NCBI GenBank assembly: GCA_016212185.1
Contig: JACRGX010000076.1
Span: 1-64,000, forward strand
Direction: 5' to 3'
Length of the DNA stretch: 64,000 nt
From: Nitrospirota bacterium
GTDB lineage: Bacteria; Nitrospirota; Thermodesulfovibrionia; UBA6902; DSMQ01
Part shown: positions 1 through 5,234 of the stretch, piece by piece
Layout: every line of letters starts with the position of its first letter
Position numbering within the stretch: the stretch's first letter is position 1
The notes under the pieces: generated by a model
Told to the model about the DNA's origin: nothing
The model's database searches: none
The model's input: only the letters and a program-made list of their open reading frames with translations
Made by a program: the position numbers and the translations under genes

Positions 1-259
1 AGGCGCGGGTTTTTATCCTGGGGTTTTAAATACAAAAATTTATGATGAAATAATTACCGTTGCCAATGCAGATGCGGCTGATATGACAAGACAGCTTGCC
101 GTGAAAGAAGGCATTCTTGCAGGCATTTCCTCAGGCGCGGCCTTATGGGCGGCGCTTAAAGTATCGCAGAAAATCGGAAAAGATAAAAAAATTGTCGTTG
201 TCTTCCCGGACCGCGGAGACAGATATTTAAGCACGGGGCTTTTTAATCCGGCGGGCTGA
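1..259 (+). CDS. cysK: Cysteine synthase, C-terminal part (partial at window edge)
   Basis: The frame opening at base 2 encodes about 85 residues. They match the C-terminus of PLP-dependent O-acetylserine sulfhydrylase: an [17 protein letters not shown] segment that contacts the cofactor phosphate region, and the terminal [16 protein letters not shown] signature. The enzyme makes cysteine from O-acetylserine and sulfide in the cytosol. The N-terminus, including the PLP lysine, lies outside the window. The stop codon abuts the attC-like repeat that ends the minus-strand cassette array, so this gene is the chromosomal neighbour of that array. Cystathionine beta-synthase-type paralogues cannot be excluded from the C-terminus alone. 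Confidence 0.85.
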
Positions 260-313
260 TGCGGCAGTTAAGCCGCCGCGCTTTCCAGTGTCCACTTGAC
301 GCCATAGTTAGGT
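256..313 (-). repeat. attC-like site 1, after the HNH gene
   Basis: Read on the minus strand this 58-bp imperfect palindrome starts with ACCTAAC at 313-307, a perfect fit to the attC R'' consensus RYYYAAC. It then has arms GGCGTCAAG (303-295) and CTTAACTGCC (272-263), which pair with one extra unpaired base, the usual attC L-box hallmark. The expected terminal R' (GTTRRRY) is degenerate here (GCATCAG), next to the cysK stop. The size and the TCAAG/CTTAA boxes resemble classical short attC sites. The site lies directly 3' of the HNH gene in gene orientation. Confidence 0.55.
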
Positions 314-317
314 CATA

Positions 318-1130
318 TTAACTCTCACTTACTGCTTTTGCTATTTGAGACAAAACAGCATCTATATCTGTAACTTTACCAGCTATGGCTTTGTAGATTG
401 GCAAGCTACCTATTAGTAGCAGCTGCACATACACCACGAGATAATACTCATCATTTATTTCTTCGAGATTGACAGTCAGTTGATTGACTATGCTACTGAG
501 TTCAGATTCTTTAATTCCACCTATATAGTGTGATATATATTCGTTGTCACCGAGTATAACTTCTGGAAGTAAAGATAAATACCCATTACCCCTTAAGACA
601 GCAAACACATAGCTATGCGCAATTTTAGCAATCAAACGACACAGATCACCCCACATTGCTACGCAATCAATTTTTACACATGGATATCCAGATTCAGCCA
701 TCAATTTATCTAAACTTTTTTTATCTCCTTTCAGCTCAACCTTCATTTCTGGATTTGAATTCGACAGTTCCCTCCCTGCAATGAGACATGGCTCAGGAAG
801 CAATAGAGAAAGATAAAAGTTAGGGTGTTCCTCAACCGGCAATTTTACCTTAACCTCGTTTCCATCATGCTTGACAAAGGTTATAGGAAACTTATTAGGT
901 CTATCTTTCTTGCGGCGCGTAGGAAAGTTATACTTCGCCCTATATGGCCAATACATGTTCCTGGCGACTCTTTGCTCAAATTTTTTGGTAATATCAGCAC
1001 AACTATTACAGCTTGCTTTCTGCAATACTTCCCATCCATGGAGTGAAAGCGGAATAATGTGCTCATCAGAAAGAGGTCTTTCTGATGAGCCACAGTAAAC
1101 GCAAATATTGGCTGGAGGGTATATAGCCAT
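318..1130 (-). CDS. HNH endonuclease-like protein (integron-like cassette gene)
   Basis: A 270-residue protein with an N-terminal HNH_5-like zinc-binding nuclease core. It has a CVYCGS knuckle near residue 11, an EHIIPLSL active-site stretch near 24 and a second knuckle CNSC near 42. The rest is not recognisable and may carry specificity. HNH proteins of this kind cut nucleic acid and often belong to phage-defence or mobile loci; no target can be inferred. It is flanked on both sides by attC-like repeats and transcribed away from the promoter at 5036-5064, as expected for a gene cassette. The ATG at 1130 begins only 7 bases past the cassette boundary and has no strong Shine-Dalgarno. Confidence 0.7.
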   Translation of the reverse strand: MAIYPPANICVYCGSSERPLSDEHIIPLSLHGWEVLQKASCNSCADITKKFEQRVARNMYWPYRAKYNFPTRRKKDRPNKFPITFVKHDGNEVKVKLPVEEHPNFYLSLLLPEPCLIAGRELSNSNPEMKVELKGDKKSLDKLMAESGYPCVKIDCVAMWGDLCRLIAKIAHSYVFAVLRGNGYLSLLPEVILGDNEYISHYIGGIKESELSSIVNQLTVNLEEINDEYYLVVYVQLLLIGSLPIYKAIAGKVTDIDAVLSQIAKAVSES

Positions 1131-1137
1131 TTTGACA

Positions 1138-1276
1138 ACCTAACGCACAACTCACTGATGCAGACCACCGAATGACTTAAACGTGCCAAAAGACAATCCG
1201 CTAACTACAAGTCACTGCAAGCCTGAAAAGCGTCCTGTGGTCTGCATTCAGCGCAGTGACTTATTGTGCATTCTGT
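1138..1276 (-). repeat. attC-like site 2, after vsr
   Basis: A 139-bp imperfect inverted repeat. On the minus strand it ends with GTTAGGT (1144-1138), a perfect R' core (GTTRRRY). Nested pairing arms are GCACAA/TTGTGC (1145-1150 with 1264-1269), CACTG/CAGTG (1153-1157 with 1254-1258) and TGCAGACCAC/GTGGTCTGCA (1159-1168 with 1237-1246), with asymmetric unpaired spacers as in attC hairpins. The R'' half near 1276-1270 is degenerate (ACAGAAT). The last codons of vsr (stop at 1248) run into the right arm. Confidence 0.55.
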
Positions 1277-1658
1277 TTAATTTATGATTAACTTTGTTTG
1301 ACTTGATTTCGTGTTCCCAGACTCTAATCACTTGCCAGCCCTTTGCCCTCAATGTTCTTGTTATCTTCTTGTCTCTAATTTTATTTTTTTCAATCTTGTT
1401 GTTCCAGTAGTTTTCATTTGAAGCTGGCATTCGGCAATGCAAGGGGCAACTATGCCAAAAGCAACCATCAATAAACACAGCGGTTCTCTCTCTCAGAAAA
1501 ACAAAATCTGGATTGCCGATCAAAGGATAATTACGACGCCATCCTGTGATGCCCTTGTCCTTGAGGATAGAAACAAACTGAAGCTCTGTGGATTTATTGC
1601 CTCGGGACTTCACGCTTGCCATTATTTTTGAGCGTTCAGATTTTGAAAAGGTATCCAT
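1248..1658 (-). CDS. vsr: Very short patch repair (Vsr) endonuclease
   Basis: A 136-residue member of the Vsr family, which nicks 5' of T in T:G mismatches produced by deamination of 5-methylcytosine. Family signatures are all present: SERSKIMASVKSRGNKSTE near the N-terminus, the catalytic-site PDFVF and VFIDGCFWHSCPLH block near residues 50-72, and the C-terminal RAKGWQVIRVWEHEI. It starts 4 nt after the restriction-enzyme stop, so it is cotranscribed with the C5 methyltransferase whose mutagenic by-products it would repair. The C-terminus overlaps the attC-like palindrome, which fits a compact cassette. Confidence 0.92.
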   Translation of the reverse strand: MDTFSKSERSKIMASVKSRGNKSTELQFVSILKDKGITGWRRNYPLIGNPDFVFLRERTAVFIDGCFWHSCPLHCRMPASNENYWNNKIEKNKIRDKKITRTLRAKGWQVIRVWEHEIKSNKVNHKLNRMHNKSLR

Positions 1659-1662
1659 ATTG

Positions 1663-2400
1663 TCACTTAATGATTTCTATCCAAGAATCATCAAATTTGA
1701 TTGCCTTGAGGATGTCGGCGCGGTCTACTTGTGGAGGTTGCTTAATTCGTATCGCAAGTATGTCGTCAGGCACGTCTTCTATGATGGTAAACTGGGAACC
1801 GTGAGGCTGCCATGTGAAGATGTGCTGCTTGCTGTCCTTGCCAAATCCCTCAAGATTGTTTCTCTCGTTCCACTGCCACCAGAAGTTCTCAACTCTGTAC
1901 AAAATAGTTTCAAACTCAAAGACTGCCGCTTCCAGCAGGTCATCGGACTTAATCAAAACCACTGTCCTGACGTGTTTGTAGAGTTTGCGAATACTTGCTA
2001 CCCGTTCGTTCCAGATGGAGAGAATCTTCTCTCCGAGTTCATTCGGGTCGCACTCGCTAATTTCGCGGTCGCCAAAAGAATAAACAGGAGAATTCCGGCC
2101 AGATATCAGGCGGATTTTAGAAACTGTTGAAGGTTTTCTGTTCTTAACTGTCTTAGCTCCCCATGCTGTTTGTTGGAGAACTACATCGTCTAAACCGACA
2201 TTTGAGGGTTTCCATTTTGCGCCGACAAGTCGAGCAAATATTTCTTCCCAATCTGGACCTTCCAGTCTTGCCGTCCCACGCGATGCAAGTAAATACACAA
2301 GCTCGCGTCCCAAATTAAGTGCAAATTCTTTTGGGAATTTATTTAGCAGATATGGCGGCTTGTATTTCTCTACCGTTCTTAATTTTGGACTTTTTGCCAT
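1663..2400 (-). CDS. Putative type II restriction endonuclease partner
   Basis: A 245-residue protein I cannot assign to a named family from sequence alone. Position is the main argument: it overlaps the end of a DNA cytosine methyltransferase by 62 bp and is followed 4 nt later by vsr, the usual place for the cognate restriction enzyme. Near residues 60-80 the stretch GLDDVV then AWGAKTVK could be a variant PD-(D/E)XK nuclease core (acidic residue, then AK on the next strand). If correct, it cuts the sequence that the methyltransferase protects. It could instead be a regulator or a non-nuclease accessory. Confidence 0.55.
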   Translation of the reverse strand: MAKSPKLRTVEKYKPPYLLNKFPKEFALNLGRELVYLLASRGTARLEGPDWEEIFARLVGAKWKPSNVGLDDVVLQQTAWGAKTVKNRKPSTVSKIRLISGRNSPVYSFGDREISECDPNELGEKILSIWNERVASIRKLYKHVRTVVLIKSDDLLEAAVFEFETILYRVENFWWQWNERNNLEGFGKDSKQHIFTWQPHGSQFTIIEDVPDDILAIRIKQPPQVDRADILKAIKFDDSWIEIIK

Positions 2401-3445
2401 ATTTTGCCCTTTCTTCGAGCATCGTTACCTGTCCATTAACTATTGGATATTGAAGATTGTAGTAATCATATTCGTTGTAGCTGTTATGCCAGCTATGCGC
2501 TATGAATAAATTTCTTAGAACCGCTTTGGCTACAGGCACTGGAAGGCTGTTACCCGCCTGCTTTCTGGTTTGACTATAATTACATATGATGTTAAAGCTA
2601 TCTGGGAATCCTTGTAACCGTAACATTTCACGCAGAGTAAGCCTTCTCTCGCCGTTAACTAACAAATAGTTGTATGAAGCTCCAGCACGCAAAGCGCAGG
2701 AATATGGATATGCGCTGATATGTCCCGCTTTATTTTCATGCCAGATTGTCGGTTCTTTTGTGAGCTTATGTTTTTTTAGTCGGTTCTTTCTGATATGTTC
2801 TGAGGCATAGTATTGTTCAGGCACATAGTCTTCTAAAATCTCATGCAACGGGGTCATGGATATGCCGCCTTCCGGCCAATCAAATGAACAAGGTTTTTTA
2901 AATCCGATGATAAAAATACGCTCTCTCTTTTGGGGAAGTCCAAAATTCAGCGCGTTTAAAACACGAAAATCAGCATAATACCCTAACTCTCTTAATGCCT
3001 GCATAATCCGCTTGAGTGTCTTGCCGTTATTATGTCCTGCTAACAACTTAACGTTCTCTAGTAAAAATACAGATGGCTGCTTTGCTTTAAGTATGCGGGC
3101 AATATCAAAGAAAAGAGTGCCACGAGTGTCTTTAAATCCATGTCTGTGTCCAATAATGCTGAAAGGCTGACATGGAAAACCAGCAAGAAGAATGTCATGG
3201 TCTGGTATATCCTCGGCGTTGATTGCTGTAATATCTCCGATGGGTTTCTCTCCGAAGTTTGCTTCATAAGCTTTCTGGCAATCTTCGTCTATATCACTGG
3301 AAAACTTACATTTAATAGGTATTCCTAAATCAGCAGCAGCTTGCTCAATTGCCAAACGAAATCCACCAATGCCACAGAATAAATCAATGAATCTAATTGC
3401 CTTGCCGTTTTTCTTAATCAAATTTGACATGCTATAAGTTACCAT
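2339..3445 (-). CDS. DNA (cytosine-5-)-methyltransferase
   Basis: A 368-residue C5 methyltransferase that transfers a methyl group from SAM to cytosine C5 in a specific site. Conserved motifs appear in order: I (FIDLFCGIGGFRLA near 20), IV with the catalytic cysteine (GFPCQPFS near 90), VI (ENVKLL), VIII (QKRERIFIIGF), IX (RRLTLREMLRLQGFP) and X (QAGNSLPVPVAKAV). The target-recognition domain lies between VIII and IX. It is the first gene of a methyltransferase/endonuclease/Vsr group that sits between two attC-like repeats. An internal ATG at 3430 is an alternative start; neither has a clear Shine-Dalgarno. Confidence 0.92.
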   Translation of the reverse strand: MVTYSMSNLIKKNGKAIRFIDLFCGIGGFRLAIEQAAADLGIPIKCKFSSDIDEDCQKAYEANFGEKPIGDITAINAEDIPDHDILLAGFPCQPFSIIGHRHGFKDTRGTLFFDIARILKAKQPSVFLLENVKLLAGHNNGKTLKRIMQALRELGYYADFRVLNALNFGLPQKRERIFIIGFKKPCSFDWPEGGISMTPLHEILEDYVPEQYYASEHIRKNRLKKHKLTKEPTIWHENKAGHISAYPYSCALRAGASYNYLLVNGERRLTLREMLRLQGFPDSFNIICNYSQTRKQAGNSLPVPVAKAVLRNLFIAHSWHNSYNEYDYYNLQYPIVNGQVTMLEERAKYGKKSKIKNGREIQAAISAK

Positions 3446-3475
3446 TATCAGCGTAAGTTGTTCAATTACTTAAAT

Positions 3476-3613
3476 GCATAACGCCTTGATGACTGACGAG
3501 TGCCACTGTATGACGTTGAAAAGCAAAAAACGATTTGCAAACCTAAAACTACCACTGGCTAAAAAAGGGACCTGTGGCATTCGTTTAGCTGCACAACCTA
3601 TTAAGCGTTCACT
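3476..3613 (-). repeat. attC-like site 3, after the KAP gene
   Basis: A 138-bp imperfect palindrome. On the minus strand it starts AGTGAACGC (3613-3605) and ends GGCGTTATGC (3485-3476). The arms AACGC-TTAAT and ATCAAGGCGTT pair with one extrahelical base. Inner arms GAATGCCAC and GTGGCACTC pair with one mismatch. The terminal GTTATGC is identical to the sequence at 5002-4996 just before the KAP coding region, as expected if a cassette lies between two recombination points. Confidence 0.55.
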
Positions 3614-3618
3614 GAACA

Positions 3619-4968
3619 TTACTGTGTAAATGTAAATGTAGACATAGAGTTAAATATAAAAGGAATAACACTTTGTCTTTGTGAATCATACATTCCAGTT
3701 TTAGCAAAATAATCTTTTGGCTCTATTTTCTTTAAATCCTCGTCACTCATCAAACAATATCTAAGAAGCCAAGTTAGCGGGTGTTTTTCATTTTTGCCTT
3801 CAAACCAATCGGTTACTAAATATTGCAAGTCAAAACTATCATATAGTTCTTCATACGTACACTTGCTTTCTCTTAATTTTTGGTAAATCCCTGGATTAGC
3901 AACCTTAACGATGGCAAGAAATGGGATAAGGATTTCATGATAGTTGTTTAGTGAGTACATGGTAGTTTTTACTAATATTATGTTGACTACTATTTGCTCC
4001 AGTTCTCTCAATGATAATGAGCAATGTCCTATATAATCTTTCATGAAATCGTTAAGATTTTCATCATGTTGTGAAGTAATTTGATAGTTGTGTAATTTCA
4101 TTAAATGATGGTAGTACGTCCATAAATCACTTCCATATTTTGACGCATTTTTAGGAAGAGAGCACCAAATATTTACAAATTTTTGAAGATATTGATTAGC
4201 CTTAATGCCAGAACCATATTGACATCTTACTGATTCTTCAATTTGTTCACGATTCATTACTAGAACAAAAACAATCTTTTGTACGGAGAAGACATGTTTT
4301 ATTTTTTCAAGGAGTTCAAGCGCAAATGTTGGCTTACACCTATCAAGTTCATCAATTATAAAAACTACCGGTTTACCATCGCTCGACACAGCACCAGCCA
4401 GCTCCTGTAAAGTCAAACGAAAATTATTAAGACATGCCTTATCTTCTTTGTAGTTATCAAAAACGTGTGATAAATATTGTTCGGTTGTTTTTGCTGCTTC
4501 GTCAGCAATATCTTTATCAGCGCCTAAGTTTTCCAATTCCGTTCCATCAAGTACACCTATCGTTAATGCTTTTATTCCTATTTTCATACCTGACTTTAGC
4601 AACACTTTGCTGGCTTGAACGGCTTTATCTTTATATTTCTTTATCTTTTCTTCTGGCACCTTCAGAGCTTTTGCCAAATCGTAAATCTCACCAGAAAGTG
4701 CGGTAAAGGGGTCATCCATGTAATCATTTGAGAAAGCGTCAAAATATATGCTTTTAATGTTGTTTTCAGTTAGGTAGCCTCTCCACATTTTTATGAATGT
4801 AGTTTTCCCCTCTCCCCATTTAGCGTCTAATGCAATAATTAGTTCATCCTCAATATTTGATATTAATTTATATAAGGCTTCTCCAAAAGGTTTTCGTTTA
4901 AAAATATCCTTTCCATTGGCAAAGCCCTCAGTTTCAGAAATTTCAAGAGGAGGTATTGAAAGTTTCAT
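3619..4968 (-). CDS. KAP family P-loop NTPase (integron-like cassette gene)
   Basis: A 449-residue KAP-type P-loop NTPase. The Walker A motif is AKWGEGKTTF at residues 49-58, and the Walker B region FIIDELDRCKP lies near 210, where KAP proteins have this D-E-L-D-R-C pattern. No clear membrane insertion is visible, unlike many KAP members. Bacterial KAP NTPases include phage-exclusion proteins such as PifA of F, so a defence role is plausible but not shown. I chose the ATG at 4968 (MKLSIPP). The longer in-frame ATG at 5004 lies upstream of the GTTATGC boundary and so outside the presumed cassette. Confidence 0.8.
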   Translation of the reverse strand: MKLSIPPLEISETEGFANGKDIFKRKPFGEALYKLISNIEDELIIALDAKWGEGKTTFIKMWRGYLTENNIKSIYFDAFSNDYMDDPFTALSGEIYDLAKALKVPEEKIKKYKDKAVQASKVLLKSGMKIGIKALTIGVLDGTELENLGADKDIADEAAKTTEQYLSHVFDNYKEDKACLNNFRLTLQELAGAVSSDGKPVVFIIDELDRCKPTFALELLEKIKHVFSVQKIVFVLVMNREQIEESVRCQYGSGIKANQYLQKFVNIWCSLPKNASKYGSDLWTYYHHLMKLHNYQITSQHDENLNDFMKDYIGHCSLSLRELEQIVVNIILVKTTMYSLNNYHEILIPFLAIVKVANPGIYQKLRESKCTYEELYDSFDLQYLVTDWFEGKNEKHPLTWLLRYCLMSDEDLKKIEPKDYFAKTGMYDSQRQSVIPFIFNSMSTFTFTQ

Positions 4969-4995
4969 AAGCTTATATCTTTCTTTGCTTTGTAC

Positions 4996-5002
4996 GCATA
5001 AC
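4996..5002 (-). other. Cassette boundary core (attI-like GTTATGC)
   Basis: On the minus strand GTTATGC at 5002-4996 repeats the last seven bases of attC-like site 3 exactly. It sits between the strong promoter and the first cassette gene, where an attI recombination point is expected. The identification rests on this heptamer and its position only. Confidence 0.4.
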
Positions 5003-5035
5003 ATTTACATTTAAACTTATCCTATATTTAGCAGC

Positions 5036-5064
5036 ATTATATGGCGAAAAAAGGGAGATGTCAA
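5036..5064 (-). promoter_or_regulatory. Perfect sigma70 promoter driving the cassette array (Pc-like)
   Basis: The minus strand has TTGACA at 5064-5059, a 17-bp spacer and TATAAT at 5041-5036, a full consensus match. Transcription would start near 5029 and run through the KAP gene, the methyltransferase group and the HNH gene, all on the same strand. A strong promoter just ahead of the first cassette is the usual integron arrangement. Confidence 0.8.
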
Positions 5065-5198
5065 GCAAATAGCCTACACATTGAGTAATTTATTATTGGT
5101 CTCTATTGGGGAGTTCTGCATTTACAGCCGGCGGGTTAAAAAACCTCTTGTCAATAAAGTAATTCATAGCTATAATGTCAACATCTGACAACAGTCGG

Positions 5199-5234
5199 GA
5201 GTTAAGAGTTAGGAGTCAGGAGTAAAGAGTTAAG
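5199..5234. repeat. 7-bp tandem repeat upstream of the Lon-like gene
   Basis: Five consecutive heptamers of the form GAGTTAA, GAGTTAG, GAGTCAG, GAGTAAA, GAGTTAA lie 30 bp before the start of the Lon-like protease gene. This is one locus of the heptamer repeat class found across the window. Confidence 0.75.

Follow-up and report, generated by a model that had tools for sequence, protein, structure and literature searches.

A type II restriction-modification (R-M) system and a Vsr endonuclease are very probably carried together, as methyltransferase, restriction enzyme and Vsr (M-R-Vsr), on a single integron cassette in a Nitrospirota bacterium. This cassette is the second of three in an array without an integrase of its own. 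The window analysed is the whole stretch of 64,000 nucleotides from contig JACRGX010000076.1 (positions 1–64,000; genome G000), and the features concerned are the following.

258–5137, no strand assigned: inserted segment comprising the array and its promoter, which G001, a genome of the same genus, lacks
258–313, minus strand: truncated attC of the HNH cassette, cut at the insert border (read from the sequence)
318–1130, minus strand: HNH-like protein of the third cassette (PF14279, E=3.1e-05, 24.2 bits, below the cut-off of 27.5)
1138–1273, minus strand: attC of the M-R-Vsr cassette (covariance model R2, E=1.4e-22; also model R1)
1248–1658, minus strand: Vsr mismatch endonuclease (TIGR00632; alignment with 1cw0)
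1663–2400, minus strand: predicted type II restriction endonuclease with a PD-(D/E)XK fold (AlphaFold2, VIA-align, linkage to the methyltransferase)
2339–3445, minus strand: C5-cytosine DNA methyltransferase (PF00145; M.HhaI match)
3476–3610, minus strand: attC between the KAP and M-R-Vsr cassettes (R2, E=2.4e-19; also R1)
3619–5004, minus strand: KAP-family NTPase of the first cassette (PF07693, E=8.6e-41; PADLOC candidate PDC-S20, E=1.5e-100)
4996–5002, minus strand: R′ box GTTATGC at the left end of the KAP cassette (read from the sequence)
5036–5064, minus strand: promoter-like TTGACA-17-TATAAT before the first cassette (12/12 matches to the sigma-70 consensus)

The trio is read on the minus strand of the window from 3445 to 1248. 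In the ORF calls, the methyltransferase is followed by a 245-aa protein and then by Vsr, with an overlap of 62 nt at the first junction and a gap of 4 nt at the second; the gene positions and the tight spacing proposed in the initial annotation are thus correct for all three minus-strand genes. The methyltransferase matches PF00145 with 301 bits against a cut-off of 22 (E=1.6e-89) and M.HhaI with E=1.8e-65, the latter match leaving the target-recognition region uncovered. Vsr is recognized by TIGR00632 (112.7 bits, cut-off 97.85) and PF03852 (62.3 against 27 bits), and its residues 2–120 align with the E. coli Vsr structure 1cw0. Ratios of dN/dS lie between 0.045 and 0.12 for the trio genes in the 13 of 15 comparisons with unsaturated synonymous sites, and all three genes look to be under purifying selection. 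A separate observation concerns the start of the methyltransferase gene, where a CAATTGAACAACTTGCGCTGATAATGGTA-like stretch (window 3446–3475) lies just ahead of and across the start. It is conserved at the same place in six related loci (L016, L017, L020, L024, L030 and L031) and is kept even where the ATG is lost (L018, L019 and L027). This stretch is possibly a promoter or operator, in which case translation of the methyltransferase would begin further in.

The 245-aa protein had been annotated as an endonuclease without a clear family, and the searches agree: it has no match in Pfam, NCBIfam or PADLOC, and no credible match among PDB sequences (one chance-level match, E=1.7). AlphaFold2 models made with 17 and 30 homologues reach pLDDT values of 87.6 and 91.9. 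The PD-(D/E)XK fold looked for in the product of 1663–2400 is indeed the one predicted, not one unrelated to nucleases. This assignment is based on VIA-align and the consistency of its matches rather than on Foldseek, which is weak on both models (best E 0.02–0.03, nothing below 0.001). The top VIA-align match is PDB entry 3ndh, which we take to be ThaI (Z 9.3 and 8.6, rmsd 4.4, 176 and 178 aligned residues), followed by HinP1I (Z 7.8 and 7.5) and EcoRV, most Z values being <8. For the better model, all 50 rows among the matches listed are nucleases, presumably all of the PD-(D/E)XK class; for the first model, the list consists mostly of unrelated proteins from about row 39.

All 30 of the nuclease sequences compared have D72, K83 and E162, with either G or S at position 81. 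As this position lies two residues ahead of K83, the family lacks the canonical (D/E)XK acid; our guess is that a displaced acid, e.g. E162, takes its place. The sequences were compared in two alignments, A1 (the window and 16 of 19 genome loci, the broken L027, L029 and L031 being excluded) and A4 (A1 and 13 of 16 viral loci, with L054, L058 and L064 excluded). The non-canonical active site and the weak Foldseek E-values are what would be expected if the middle protein were not a cognate restriction enzyme but some other member of the PD-(D/E)XK group, perhaps an inactive or modification-dependent nuclease, beside a solitary methyltransferase–Vsr pair. This is improbable, given that the protein is linked to the window's methyltransferase family at all 35 loci, that D72, K83 and E162 do not vary across the 30 sequences, and that the folds most like its own are those of type II restriction enzymes.

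The borders of the M-R-Vsr cassette carry R′/R″ boxes and a conserved imperfect hairpin, and the stop codon of Vsr falls inside the attC at 1138–1273. Both window sites and four sites flanking related trios elsewhere have a mean column identity of 74%; these six aligned sites share a 16-bp stem, and compensatory changes are seen at 12 of the 32 predicted base pairs. Covariance model R1 was built from aligned attC sites that included both window sites. Because of this, a second model, R2, was built without window sequence from 11 attC sites in G037 and G026, two further genomes that carry intI, although R1 and R2 are not wholly independent, since the training sites of R2 were found using R1. 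Besides the two window sites, the next-best R2 match within the 64 kb is at noise level (E=0.61). With R1, G000 yields five sites at E≤1, namely the window pair, two that flank an FRG-domain gene on contig C44, and a single site on contig C23. A second attC alignment that included viral sites was misaligned and was excluded from the models. The covariance models supersede a stem score of our own on GTTRRRY-like sites, which was dropped for its poor separation from controls and its frequent choice of wrong sites. It gave p=0.027 and 0.031 for the window sites against 482 control windows and was not significant at most other loci. An inverted-repeat scan found stems but was not decisive.

Could the attC-like sites instead be hairpins that arose by chance or have decayed, and could the trio be a chromosomal R-M operon of the ordinary sort? 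G000 has no intact intI, and the simple stem score stands only at p of about 0.03. This explanation is nevertheless hardly credible, because the same structured site of 135 nt recurs after each of several cassettes in a relative's intI-bearing integron and the family is found in 48 of 101 genomes. In the relative, G037, an intact intI adjoins a single array containing seven attC sites of the same family. The count of 48 includes the window's own genome, and intI is found over the cut-off in 39 of the 101. Judged by sequence and predicted structure, the window attC sites are genuine and beyond chance. The placement of three genes on a single attC-bounded cassette, as first annotated, is therefore upheld by R1 and R2. 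Its proposed limits, 1138–3482, match the two R′ boxes; the cassette proper probably runs from ∼1144 to ∼3481, because IntI cleavage of GTTRRRY falls after the G, if this rule holds here. In a side observation, the proteins of the cassettes in the complete G037 integron (L077:471–11270, contig C100) repeatedly end in sorting signals, presumably PEP-CTERM-like.

The array consists of a KAP-NTPase cassette, the M-R-Vsr cassette and an HNH-like cassette, all in one orientation. It is missing from G001, in which the bases matching window positions 257 and 5138 are only 21 bp apart, and represents a 4.9-kb insert in the window. At the far end of the array, R″ of the HNH cassette (ACCTAAC, 307–313) is the exact complement of its left R′ (GTTAGGT). 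PF14279 endonucleases are common cassette genes according to passages of PMC7370490. The ATG of the KAP gene at 5004 overlaps the R′ box, and a later ATG at 4968 may be the true start. Promoter-like matches in the scanned region are no commoner than in shuffled sequences (8 versus a mean of 13.6), so support for the promoter comes from its perfect match and its position. The position recurs in G007, where a cassette that has an attC of its own is preceded by a 46-nt stretch, 91% alike, that contains the −10 hexamer and the leader. The strong promoter block (window 5028–5070) is also seen on contig C82 of G000, in G001 and in G007 (L074, L068 and L067); no attC of the window's family was found on C82.

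No intact intI over the cut-off was found in the G000 assembly (97.6% complete, 103 contigs), which contains an integrase remnant, L001, reduced to 135 C-terminal residues and bounded by stops. By its content the array is a CALIN. Just ahead of the remnant (L001:1205–1495), inverted 24-nt copies of GGGGTCAGGTCTTGTTTCTTGCAT flank a short stretch that resembles a small mobile element. Elsewhere in the genome, the FRG-domain gene between two attC sites on C44 (L038:5756–7364) and an Mrr-like gene beside the attC on C23 (L039:2353–3726) are both defence-like.

Relatives of the nuclease occur at 19 genome loci (52–92% identity) and on 16 viral contigs. The 19 loci do not include L009, which is the window itself, or L010–L013, which duplicate L014, L020 and L031. 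By their record labels they come from Nitrospirota, Desulfobacterota (Deltaproteobacteria, Smithella), Gallionella, Kiritimatiellae, Puniceicoccales and Armatimonadetes. A methyltransferase relative or remnant stands beside the nuclease at 19 of 19 genome and 16 of 16 viral loci, the remnants being those of L027, L029 and L031; across the 35 loci, the two genes mostly overlap or are adjacent. Vsr is present at 14 of the 19 genome loci and 2 of the 16 viral ones, with no Vsr match in L021, L022, L025, L028 and L032 or in the other 14 viral loci. With so many relatives lacking Vsr, the R-M pair does not depend on it. Among the 101 genomes searched, nuclease matches were found in four, i.e. the window's own, G030, G040 and G027. 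The trio is carried by G030, whose contig begins within the methyltransferase, and by G040, and a broken form by G027. A plasmid collection gave no nuclease relative, and phage records gave one (55.6%).

The same trio flanked by attC in other genomes, the search for which had been proposed at the outset, exists. L016 has it as the first integron cassette, next to a full, divergent intI (1493–2770), with the methyltransferase from 2953 and an attC at 5137–5227. An attC at the module edge is detected in at least 7 of the 19 genome loci by R1 (L014, L020 and L023 from its training set; L015, L016, L024 and L030 held out) and in at least 5 of 19 by R2, both counts being lower bounds because some contigs stop short of the flank. 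Probable attC sites seen by eye beside L017, L018, L019 and L027 were not counted, as they lack model support. In phage-like L060 (3936–5830), a methyltransferase–nuclease pair, with a nuclease of 39% identity, lies between two attC sites of another type. These sites are textbook-looking and near-symmetrical, and the model called them on the strand opposite the genes. This arrangement suggests a second, independent capture of a methyltransferase–nuclease pair.

Divergence within the cassette is uneven. Between L014 and L020, identity is 95.5% for the methyltransferase, 88.7% for Vsr and 74.5% for the nuclease, and L020 and L024 belong to different methyltransferase groups yet are each other's closest relatives in the nuclease. 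In 3 of the 19 loci (L027:2788–4010, L029:2608–3831 and L031:3073–3998), the middle of the module is missing between an early point in the methyltransferase and the front of the endonuclease, and a different nuclease gene and a small cysteine-rich ORF take its place. The replacing nuclease is of the Mrr_cat type in L027 and L029 and of the NOV_C type (NO VEIN C-terminal-like) in L031. The methyltransferase start, the endonuclease end and Vsr persist as remnants, and the 3′ junction is the same in L027 and L031. On the grounds of these nuclease allele swaps and replacements, it is conceivable, though rather unlikely, that the nuclease position of the cassette is an exchangeable slot, with the methyltransferase start, Vsr and attC staying in place while the middle is traded. 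If so, integron cassettes would evolve defence genes internally, besides shuffling whole cassettes, and the slot would show a route of defence-gene diversification within cassettes.

As to function, the trio has the look of a mobile phage-defence kit whose general type is known. Transcription would start at the consensus promoter (5064–5036) and/or within the cassette. The target sites of the host would be marked by the methyltransferase, whose gene is nearest the promoter, and the endonuclease would cleave unmarked incoming (phage) DNA. Vsr would nick T:G mismatches arising from deamination of 5-methylcytosine, leading to fewer mutations at these sites. An integrase acting in trans could excise and reinsert the trio, with the attC orientation holding the methyltransferase first. 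The initial annotation had seen joint carriage of all three activities as a protection from self-killing on transfer; we infer that self-killing concerns only the methyltransferase and the endonuclease, with the methyltransferase first. More plausibly, judging from what the Vsr family is known for, the role of Vsr is to limit C-to-T mutation at methylated sites.

Alternatively, the trio could be a selfish stabilizer, with loss of the cassette leading to killing by leftover endonuclease, so that the array is protected rather than phage fought. Passages of PMC4176335 mention a suggestion that R-M systems stabilize super-integrons, and passages of PMC3874152 discuss post-segregational killing by R-M systems. 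However, the array is only three cassettes long, its other two genes (KAP/PDC-S20 and HNH) are also defence-like, and selfish stabilization is compatible with defence in any case. As a replacement for the defensive role it is a possibility on the unlikely side. Under the preferred reading, that of an M-R-Vsr defence cassette, the window provides a well-bounded case in which a complete modification–cleavage–repair unit is transferred, as one integron cassette, between environmental lineages belonging to several phyla. It also provides a clonable candidate restriction-endonuclease family whose active-site pattern is unusual and which has no counterpart in Pfam, NCBIfam, PADLOC or the PDB sequences.

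R-M genes on integron cassettes are already known, as parts of PMC9892861, PMC12444791, PMC9668308, PMC8618304 and PMC4176335 describe. A literature search covering few subscription papers returned, in the texts it reached, no recognized description of an M-R-Vsr cassette. The less usual traits are the Vsr travelling in the cassette and the nuclease family absent from the searched libraries. Compared with the integron-borne R-M systems of super-integrons and of environmental and archaeal cassettes, the window is alike in having R-M genes between attC sites. It differs in that its nuclease is outside all families in the searched libraries and that Vsr joins M and R in one three-gene cassette. 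The nuclease resembles ThaI, HinP1I and EcoRV in its predicted fold, but has 11–15% identity to them and no acid two residues before the invariant lysine. Like CALINs, which passages of PMC9668308 describe as still mobilizable in trans, the array has attC cassettes without intI on the contig stretch; unlike them, it keeps a consensus promoter ahead of its first cassette, at a position shared with the G007 array. Finally, Vsr-bearing R-M systems are known well enough to have a ‘V.’ naming prefix, as a portion of PMC4081073 indicates. Type II R-M systems with a V gene also have adjacent genes for a C5 methyltransferase, an endonuclease and Vsr, and the version in the window is distinguished from them by its carriage on an integron cassette.
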